Below, piece after piece: positions 53,110 to 54,974 of a stretch of DNA of 64,000 nucleotides. The notes under the pieces are model-generated. The model saw only the letters and a list, made by a program, of their open reading frames with translations, searched no databases and had not been told where the DNA came from. The position numbers and the translations under genes were made by a program. Source of the stretch: Pseudomonadota bacterium (lineage in GTDB: Bacteria; Pseudomonadota; Alphaproteobacteria; Sphingomonadales; SMXR01); NCBI GenBank assembly GCA_022566895.1, contig JADFIA010000010.1, forward strand, positions 1 through 64,000, given 5' to 3'. How positions within the stretch are numbered: position 1 is the stretch's first letter; each line of letters starts with the position of its first letter.

Positions 53110-53523
53110 CTAGTCGCTAACCGTCAAACCTTTGAAGGTCAGCGTGCAGTGATAGAGGCGCTGCGAGGCGATGTACCTTGTGGCCGACGATTCGAACTGC
53201 AAGTCGACCAGGGCGTGACCCTGGATCGGAAAATCCGCGTTATGCAGTTCGTCGATAAGCGCCGCGGCGGCTGCCTTTGAACCGCTGCACCCGCCTTCCC
53301 GGGTCCACAAATGTAACTCAAGTTCGTGTTCCTGGCCGTCAAAGGTGGCGCTGTGCCAGCTATTTGCCTTGCTGTTGCCGATCACCAAGAAGGGTGGCTC
53401 CTTCTTGGCATGCGACAGATCCGTGATTCTGGGCACCTGGCCCAATACTTCTTTTAGTCTTTGGCTATCCCCCAATCTTTTTACCAAAGAGACCTGAAGG
53501 GGCCACGTGGCGTCAGTTCCCAT
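53110..53523 (-). CDS. DUF3168 protein, orphan GTA/phage head-tail type
   Basis: A 137-residue protein resembling DUF3168, the family of GTA gp8 and phage head-tail adaptors. The pattern LQVSLVKRLGDSQRLKEVLGQ..VPRITDLSHAKKEPPFLVIGNS, then TFDGQEHELELHLWTREGGCSGSKAAAAALIDELH, and a terminal RLYHCTLTFKGLTV fits the family fold. In a full GTA cluster it lies between other head-tail genes; here none of them is present. The ATG at 53523 has AGGAGAG eight bases upstream. It follows a strong terminator and a palindrome on the same strand, so expression may be attenuated. A domesticated role is inferred. Confidence 0.8.
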   Translation of the reverse strand: MGTDATWPLQVSLVKRLGDSQRLKEVLGQVPRITDLSHAKKEPPFLVIGNSKANSWHSATFDGQEHELELHLWTREGGCSGSKAAAAALIDELHNADFPIQGHALVDLQFESSATRYIASQRLYHCTLTFKGLTVSD

Positions 53524-53649: not shown

Positions 53650-53686
53650 TAGCGCCCCCTGTCAAGTCTTTTTTTGCAGGGCGCTA
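53650..53686. repeat. hairpin at the 3' end of the frameshifted gene
   Basis: On the minus strand TAGCGCCCTG pairs with CAGGGGGCGCTA (two-base bulge) around a loop that contains the stop codon TGA of the gene. It overlaps the TTGACA box named above. Confidence 0.5.
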
Positions 53687-54137
53687 AATACCCTCAGGCC
53701 TTCATTCAACCGCACCCTGGCCCACCCACGCCGGCGGCGGTATTTTTGGTCAATCTGACCAAGTCCGTTCCCCATGATCACGTCCACTGTCACCCGAATC
53801 GCATCGCGGCCGTGGCTCTCTGCTTTTAGCCTGTCCACCCACCGGATCAGGGCGCCCGGCGCTGCTCGAGCAGGGCAACCAAACCCCTTTCCCCACCGGG
53901 ACCGATCCGCCGCCGATTGCTGGCCGAAAAACCCTCTTCATATCGCCGCGCCACCGGGCCATTGTTGGTGCTCAAAATACAACGCTCGAGTTCCAAGGCC
54001 GCATTCAGTTCCTCGACCCGAAGCACCCCACGCCGGGCCAGGCGAAGCACCGTGTCCCGGCGCCGCGAGGGGAAGCCCTGCAAGGCCCGGCACTGACCTG
54101 CCTTCTCCGACTGACGATGTTTTTGATTTACAACCAT
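53662..54137 (-). pseudogene. frameshifted phage-type gene (DUF6456-like C terminus)
   Basis: The start is ATG at 54137. 96 codons are open to TGA at 53847-53849 (RDTVLRLARRGVLRVEELNAALELERCI, then ERGLVALLEQRRAP). A second open frame, offset by -1 (or +2), then runs from about 53858 to TGA at 53662 and continues the sense: LIRWVDRLKAESHGRDAIRVTVDVIMG and QIDQKYRRRRGWARVRLNEGLRVFSAL. The helix-helix-strand pattern of the second part resembles the end of DUF6456-type alphaproteobacterial phage-like proteins. The joined product would be about 158 residues. A one-base loss near 53855, a sequencing error or real frameshifting could explain it. It is divergent from the repressor gene, with an operator in its promoter. 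Confidence 0.6.
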
Positions 54138-54148
54138 GGATTATTTGT

Positions 54149-54170
54149 ACTATAGGATTTTTCCTATAGT
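54149..54170. promoter_or_regulatory. operator 1, inverted repeat between the repressor and the frameshifted gene
   Basis: Perfect 9-bp arms ACTATAGGA (54149-54157) and TCCTATAGT (54162-54170) around TTTT. The minus strand offers TTGACT then about 18 bp then TACAAA, so the repeat lies in the promoter spacer of the divergent gene, only 12 bp from that gene's ATG. The S24-type repressor is encoded 64 bp to the right, so autoregulation is likely. Same design as operator 2. Confidence 0.75.
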
Positions 54171-54233
54171 CAATCGCAACCTCCACATTTATTGTTTTTG
54201 AGGTCAAACTGATAATCTGAGGGGAGAAGCCCC

Positions 54234-54920
54234 ATGTTGCCGCCAGCCATCGTCCGTGAGAATCTCGAACGTCTGATCAAGGCCAGTCCGAAGGACGGCT
54301 ACGCCTCGCTGTCTGCCCTCCTGGGGCGAAACCACGCCTATATTTATCAGTATCTCAAACAGGGTACGCCCGATCGCCTTAATGAATTCGACCGGCATGT
54401 CCTGGCCCGCTACTTTGGTGTCAACGATTGGGAACTTGGCGGCCCACTGGAGGTCCGGCCGAGGCCGTCCCGCGGTCTGGCCGAAGGTGGACCCCTGTTA
54501 TCCGAGATGATCATGGTCCCCTTTCTGGATGTTGTGGCCAGCGCCGGCCCTGGCTCTATGGTTGAGGAGGAGCTGACCACCGGTTTTTTGCCCGTTGACT
54601 ATCATTGGCTGCGGCGTAATCTTGGGGTCGCTCAAACTTCAAATCTGACCGCCATCACGATCGACGGCGATTCCATGTTTCCAACTCTCCACGCGGCCGA
54701 TCAGGTTCTTGTTGATTGCGGCCAACAGCAACCGGTCGACCGAGGCATTTTTGTCATCCGGCACGAGAATGCGCTGCACGTCAAGCGACTCCGCAAATCA
54801 AAGGGCGATCCCGGATGGACGGTTACCTGCGACAATCCGGAGTATCACGGGTGGAATATTAATGAAGCCACCGAATTCGAAATTCTCGGTCGTGTCATTT
54901 GGGTCTCCCGCCGCCTCTAG
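54234..54920 (+). CDS. S24-family phage-type repressor (LexA/CI-like)
   Basis: A 228-residue transcription regulator. The N-terminal part is a helix-turn-helix-like DNA-binding domain (ASLSALLGRNHAYIYQYLKQG, about 24-45). The C-terminal S24 peptidase-like domain has the Ala-Gly type cleavage region VVASAGPGSM, the catalytic Ser in TIDGDSMFPTL and the Lys in NALHVKRLRKS. So it can probably self-cleave in response to DNA damage (RecA), as CI and LexA do. The Shine-Dalgarno GAGGGGAG is strong. It is flanked by two inverted repeats of one design (54149 and 54951), its presumed operators. It is shorter and different from LexA itself. Confidence 0.9.
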   Translation: MLPPAIVRENLERLIKASPKDGYASLSALLGRNHAYIYQYLKQGTPDRLNEFDRHVLARYFGVNDWELGGPLEVRPRPSRGLAEGGPLLSEMIMVPFLDVVASAGPGSMVEEELTTGFLPVDYHWLRRNLGVAQTSNLTAITIDGDSMFPTLHAADQVLVDCGQQQPVDRGIFVIRHENALHVKRLRKSKGDPGWTVTCDNPEYHGWNINEATEFEILGRVIWVSRRL

Positions 54921-54950
54921 CCCAGCCAGCCGTCGGTTGCCGGACGGCCA

Positions 54951-54974
54951 GAGTATCGGATTTTTCCGATACTC
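54951..54974. promoter_or_regulatory. operator 2, inverted repeat downstream of the repressor gene
   Basis: Perfect 10-bp arms GAGTATCGGA (54951-54960) and TCCGATACTC (54965-54974) around TTTT. The core TATCGGATTTTTCCGATA matches operator 1 (TATAGGATTTTTCCTATA) except at one symmetric base pair, C/G versus A/T. It begins 30 bp after the repressor stop and lies about 270 bp before the thiolase start. The minus strand offers TTGCAT, 17 bp, GATACT as a possible promoter over it. 54921-55246 otherwise shows no gene. Confidence 0.7.

Follow-up and report, generated by a model that had tools for sequence, protein, structure and literature searches.

A probable domesticated lambda-type repressor switch, with operators on both sides of the repressor gene, in the Sphingomonadales

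In the stretch of DNA analysed here (the window, 64,000 nucleotides from a member of the Sphingomonadales), a gene for an S24-type repressor is enclosed by two perfect inverted repeats, and we conclude that the locus is probably a domesticated lambda-type immunity switch, in which the repeat ahead of the gene (operator 1) is OR-like and the repeat behind it (operator 2) is an OL-like relic or a looping site. This reading is supported computationally by the association of the repressor with its operator motif, the placement of operators on both sides of the gene, and a parallel in prophages. A preliminary description made from the window alone had read both repeats as sites bound by the enclosed repressor; the motif–repressor association and the recurring position of operator 2 among relatives support that proposal, and, judged from sequence comparison, both palindromes are very probably the repressor's own binding sites. 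What was an isolated guess becomes a testable regulatory unit that many sphingomonads available in culture have in common, each genome having a single locus with one repressor and one motif. After Francisella, the sphingomonads would be a second group of bacteria that seems to have retained a phage S24 repressor as a self-contained switch; in the sphingomonad group the far operator of the phage also seems to have been kept, and the divergent operon with its tail-terminator-like gene is conserved even where no phage or gene transfer agent (GTA) capsid gene was found.

The repressor gene and its two flanking palindromes

The features of the locus, in window coordinates, are as follows.

53110–53523, minus strand: tail-terminator/completion-like gene (DUF3168; Pfam PF11367, 7.6e-20), second in the divergent operon
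53665–54137, minus strand: divergent HTH-like gene (open reading frame 53847–54137, then homology in another frame at 53665–53838)
54144–54173, minus strand: candidate promoter of the divergent operon, TTGACT-18-TACAAA, with operator 1 in the spacer (by eye and by comparison)
54149–54170, no strand: operator 1 (OR-like), ACTATAGGA-TTTT-TCCTATAGT, the top motif match in the window
54167–54195, plus strand: candidate repressor promoter, TAGTCA-17-TATTGT, with a -35 that overlaps operator 1 (by comparison with relatives)
54234–54920, plus strand: S24 repressor (CI/LexA-like), 228 aa, with an N-terminal HTH, an Ala-Gly site and a Ser147/Lys184 dyad
54951–54974, no strand: operator 2 (OL-like or auxiliary), GAGTATCGGA-TTTT-TCCGATACTC, the second-best motif match in the window

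The repressor gene product matches the Peptidase_S24 domain (E 1.6e-16) and, in PHROG, transcriptional repressors (1.8e-33), and its predicted fold matches those of the lambda-186 hybrid repressor, LexA and lambda CI; an HTH domain joined to an S24 autopeptidase with a CI/LexA fold is what a lambda-type switch calls for. The catalytic Ser is present in 109 of 111 repressor homologues, and in an alignment of 15 sequences Ser147 and Lys184 are invariant; the window's repressor also has an Ala-Gly site. RecA-assisted self-cleavage is the expectation for members of this family that have a Ser-Lys dyad and an Ala-Gly site. At position 38, in the recognition helix (window 54345–54347), the window's repressor carries a Tyr that is unique among the 111 homologues, 107 of which have Gln38.

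The coordinates of the repeats, their perfect arms, their TTTT centres and the gap of 780 bp between them were all found as first described: the arms measure 9 bp in operator 1 and 10 bp in operator 2, and the centres lie 803 bp apart with the S24 gene enclosed. The further claim that the two cores differ at one symmetric pair holds for the inner 18 bp (TATAGGA/TATCGGA-N4); with the outer arms included, the operators differ at two pairs (ACTATAGGA versus AGTATCGGA). Perfect inverted repeats with arms of at least 9 bp are not rare here (8 observed in the window versus 3.4 expected from simulated sequence), so that each operator alone proves little. A pattern covering both operators, with up to three mismatches allowed, is found at exactly these two places in the window (0.05 expected), and their shared core is not a matter of chance. 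When all 20-mers of the 64-kb window were scored with a weight matrix trained on relatives only, the top score went to operator 1 (22.7 bits) and the next to operator 2 (13.1 bits). At the level of sequence, it is comparison, and not the inverted-repeat form alone, that makes both repeats significant.

The motif is tied to the repressor across relatives

Of 61 genomes sampled around that of the window, 42 have a homologue of the repressor. With 80 further named loci, nearly all from Sphingomonadales, and with duplicates removed, the set came to 111 loci, in which TAGGA-N4-TCCTA was sought, one mismatch being tolerated, over the 300 bp upstream of the repressor, the 150 bp downstream of its stop codon, the gene itself and the flanks. 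The upstream regions hold 97 sites (2.97/kb), the regions downstream of the stop 9 (0.54/kb), the repressor genes 5 (0.068/kb) and the 898 kb of flanks 7 (0.008/kb); across these homologous loci, the density of the motif ahead of the repressor thus exceeds that in the flanks about 380-fold.

A whole-genome search found the exact form, TAGGAWWWWTCCTA, in 17 of the 61 genomes of the order, always upstream of the repressor except for one site in genome G008, which sits inside an acyl-CoA dehydrogenase reading frame, and a tandem pair on contig C79 in the genome to which the window belongs. Relatives with the exact core carry it in one copy per genome, upstream of the repressor gene. As to a wider regulon, exact sites away from the repressor in the 61 genomes amount to the G008 coding hit and the C79 pair, and the genome scan for the motif that had been suggested beforehand thus shows the exact form to be essentially confined to the repressor locus. 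From its density upstream and its near-exclusive genomic location, operator 1 is predicted to be the cognate operator, and we infer that it serves both the repressor gene and the divergent operon.

In 76 of the 107 loci that could be tested, the motif stands ahead of the repressor, mainly where the divergent partners have been kept: operator and partner genes occur together in 74 loci, the operator only in 2, the partner only in 16 and neither in 15 (Fisher P 4e-8, from counts without correction for relatedness). The preliminary description had staked its reading on the repeats not varying freely among relatives that keep the repressor, and free variation is not what is seen. Some sphingomonads have tandem or triple upstream operators about 20 bp apart (at -61, -42 and -22 in locus L129), and these sets of two or three resemble OR1-3. 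Repressor homologues with neither operator nor partner are found at the loci of family f8 and at an Emcibacter locus (L194); in the loci that lack both the operator and the divergent partner (L046, L049, L050, L066-L069, L056, L057 and L194), the motif or the function may have switched.

Operator 1 and the divergent operon

The DUF3168 gene product, which also matches tail terminators in PHROG (2.4e-7), is encoded by a conserved neighbour of the repressor, present at 66 of the 111 loci. A small divergent HTH-like gene is found at 79 of the 111, and its "Cro-like" label reflects size and position, no family match having been found; 8 loci, the window included, have a different divergent HTH-like gene. 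The window's copy aligns with intact homologues of 129-178 aa (E 1e-18) and appears to be frameshifted near 53850, a frameshift that may be real or an assembly error (the genome is in 81 contigs and 86% complete). As targets of the repressor, the divergent region that had been named stands, and the obvious target within it, the HTH/tail-terminator operon, had been missed.

A scan for consensus sigma-70 promoters near both operators gave none above threshold (0.7 expected by chance), and for this reason the promoter positions given above rest on comparison only. When the upstream regions were aligned and read by eye, TTGACA was seen to abut the operator in several relatives of family f1, and the repressor promoter has counterparts in relatives of the form TTGTCA-17-TAGAAT/TATGAT.

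Operator 2 recurs past the repressor stop codon

Operator 2 starts 30 bp past the S24 stop codon. Of the 10 loci in families f1, f2 and f7, 7 have a site no more than 60 bp past the stop codon of the repressor, and when these loci are collapsed to genera, 5 of 8 have a downstream site (P ~4e-9, at most 2 mismatches); a second operator just past the repressor stop thus recurs in five genera of three families. Where both sites are present, they lie 754-803 bp apart, centre to centre. The next gene past the downstream site varies (a thiolase or a membrane protein encoded in the same direction, or a convergent gene on the minus strand), and because it differs among relatives, the downstream site goes with the repressor and not with the neighbour. 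The site in the window has the rarer half-site TCGGA, a symmetric A-to-C change at a position occupied by A in 237 of the 252 family half-sites. In most sphingomonad relatives the operators stand in tandem upstream and a downstream one is lacking, so that the family does not depend on operator 2.

Its position so close to the stop codon and its off-consensus half-site, together with a strong predicted RNA fold (z -4.4), lend some weight to a different account, in which operator 1 is the true operator and operator 2 either is a relic without function or forms a 3'-end stem-loop in the repressor mRNA, concerned with processing or termination. Operator 1, however, which stands at the end of no gene, has a predicted fold about as unusual (z -4.0); no T-run follows operator 2 and no terminator was called there; as an RNA element it has no Rfam match; and in relatives the operator sequence is kept at the post-stop place although the stems are often imperfect. 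We regard this account as possible, though not likely.

Unlikely is the proposal that operator 2, rather than acting by looping, controls an antisense or downstream unit, namely a minus-strand promoter (TTGCAT-17-GATACT) or the thiolase 270 bp away, the two targets that the preliminary description could offer. Weak minus-strand hexamers do flank operator 2 at the correct spacing, but each matches at 4/6 positions and they fail the consensus scan, relatives show no evident antisense promoter of this kind at their downstream sites, and those relatives keep the post-stop site despite their different next genes.

In three sphingomonad loci (L055, L058 and L061), the motif is found inside the codons of the repressor's interdomain linker (QEKSY or KDKSY), replacing the downstream site, where it constitutes a putative internal auxiliary operator. 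The Tyr38 of the window's repressor may relate to the unusual sequence of operator 2.

Prophage parallels and a probable phage origin

Prophage-like sequence outside the order has the same motif on both sides of S24-type repressors (L222/L261, L285, L313 and L328), with three operators upstream and two downstream of the repressor in L222/L261, and two upstream and two downstream in L285. The downstream sites of L285, L313, L328 and L222 follow TTGAC/TTGAT-like -35 boxes that point outward from the repressor, as OL and pL are laid out in lambda, and an integrase and exonuclease VIII are encoded near the repressor in L328 and L285. In L215/L259, motif sites accompany the repressor and also precede the terminase region, in surroundings that include terminase, DUF4055, P22-coat-like and tail genes. 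In the L259 prophage (genome G271) the repressor is divergent from a DUF6362 gene, and the exact operator before the terminase region suggests direct repression of packaging genes.

In an unrooted tree, the chromosomal forms are set apart from most phage forms (97/97), with a long branch (1.77) leading to the window's repressor and an uncertain placement for two of the phage rows. The chromosomal clade is probably of phage origin, and operator 2 would be best explained by descent from a phage OL. Set against a lambda-type switch, the locus has cognate operators in the divergent promoter region, as indicated by comparison; a second operator cluster beyond the repressor gene is found in prophages and chromosomal loci, here as a single off-consensus site; and no early left operon driven from OL (pL) is seen at operator 2, where no downstream-facing -35 of the kind found in the prophages and at pL was detected. 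It follows from this last point that the locus would work like, and probably descends from, a lambda-type switch and is not a complete one.

We hypothesize that the CI-like S24 repressor binds, as a dimer, to palindromes of the TAGGA-N4-TCCTA type. Operator 1 would act as OR, lying in the spacer of the divergent promoter and over the -35 of the repressor promoter, so that repressor bound there would shut off the HTH/tail-terminator operon and tune its own synthesis. Operator 2 would be an inherited phage OL without a recognisable pL, probably strengthening repression by looping over about 800 bp, or else a decaying relic. Upon DNA damage the repressor would be released by RecA-stimulated self-cleavage, as the intact Ser-Lys dyad and Ala-Gly site imply; binding, looping and induction are all deduced. 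In the lineage of the window, Tyr38, the A-to-C change in operator 2, the frameshift and the long branch may indicate a switch that is decaying or shifting in specificity. A bolder version, which we consider doubtful, would have an ancient lambda-like bistable switch, complete with OR and a looping site derived from OL, fixed in Sphingomonadales and their relatives, with the tail terminator under its control and repurposed for a host function that is triggered by DNA damage and is neither phage nor GTA, and with the tandem sites on contig C79 as a second target.

Comparison with known repressor systems

Among the closest known systems are the CI repressors of the lambdoid phages (lambda, HK022 and phiKO2), which share with the window locus the CI/LexA fold and the palindromes in the divergent promoter region and past the 3' end of the repressor gene, and with its relatives the tandem or triple operators about 20 bp apart. 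The OL-OR spacing is also alike: OL and OR stand on either side of the repressor gene, approximately 700 bp apart in HK022 and 630 bp apart in phiKO2, and the phiKO2 sites have been shown to loop together, although looping by lambda CI with single operators is weak (PMC8053113). In contrast to these phages, the window locus is chromosomal and order-wide with no surrounding prophage seen, and it has a single operator on each side, no pL operon, and a divergent partner that is no obvious Cro.

FddR of Francisella is a co-opted phage S24 repressor that controls itself and a divergent gene of unknown function; like the window's repressor it has a Ser-Lys dyad and an Ala-Gly site, and its regulon is similarly very small (PMC13148647). 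It differs in its motif (GTG-N11-CAC) and its clade, and the portion of the published account drawn on here reports no downstream operator (PMC13148647). By sequence, the window locus appears to be of the same kind, being chromosomal and conserved in its clade, with a predicted regulon of itself and the divergent gene and with the Ser-Lys and Ala-Gly residues intact. FddR is the nearest described case, and co-opted phage repressors are already known.

RogA of Caulobacter is likewise a LexA-like S24-domain repressor of Alphaproteobacteria and binds paired GGAA-N4-TTCC repeats, but it represses gafYZ, elsewhere in the genome, its half-sites are 2 bp further apart, and it is reported to be without the cleavage residues (PMC9632790), which are intact here. 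That the window's repressor is the local RogA, silencing GTA production through gafYZ-like activators with the tail-terminator gene as an outlying GTA gene, is very unlikely: the adjoining DUF3168 gene and a weak full-length alignment of the HTH-like partner with DUF6456 (hhalign E 0.0017, probability 15%) speak for it, but neither a capsid gene nor a DUF6456 gene was found in the window's genome (86% complete), near-complete capsid-less genomes (G017, G032, G040 and G050) keep the module, and relatives lack the operator at almost every DUF6456 (presumed gafZ) locus. Operators at gafYZ promoters would be expected of a RogA, and a functional equivalence of the two repressors is not supported. 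An identity with RogA or a GTA role was not supported by the DUF6456, capsid and DUF3168 searches combined with the operator check at DUF6456 loci, and kinship of the HTH-like partner with DUF6456/GafZ was set aside, the profile similarity being only weak.

The operator pair on contig C79

The only other exact motif sites in the window's genome (G000) are two copies 18 bp apart on contig C79 (C79:890-923, also L088:890-923). They fall within the first 25 codons of an orphan open reading frame (854-1684) for a membrane-anchored product, with no homologue in 20 relatives and no Pfam match, which is possibly a second target of the repressor.
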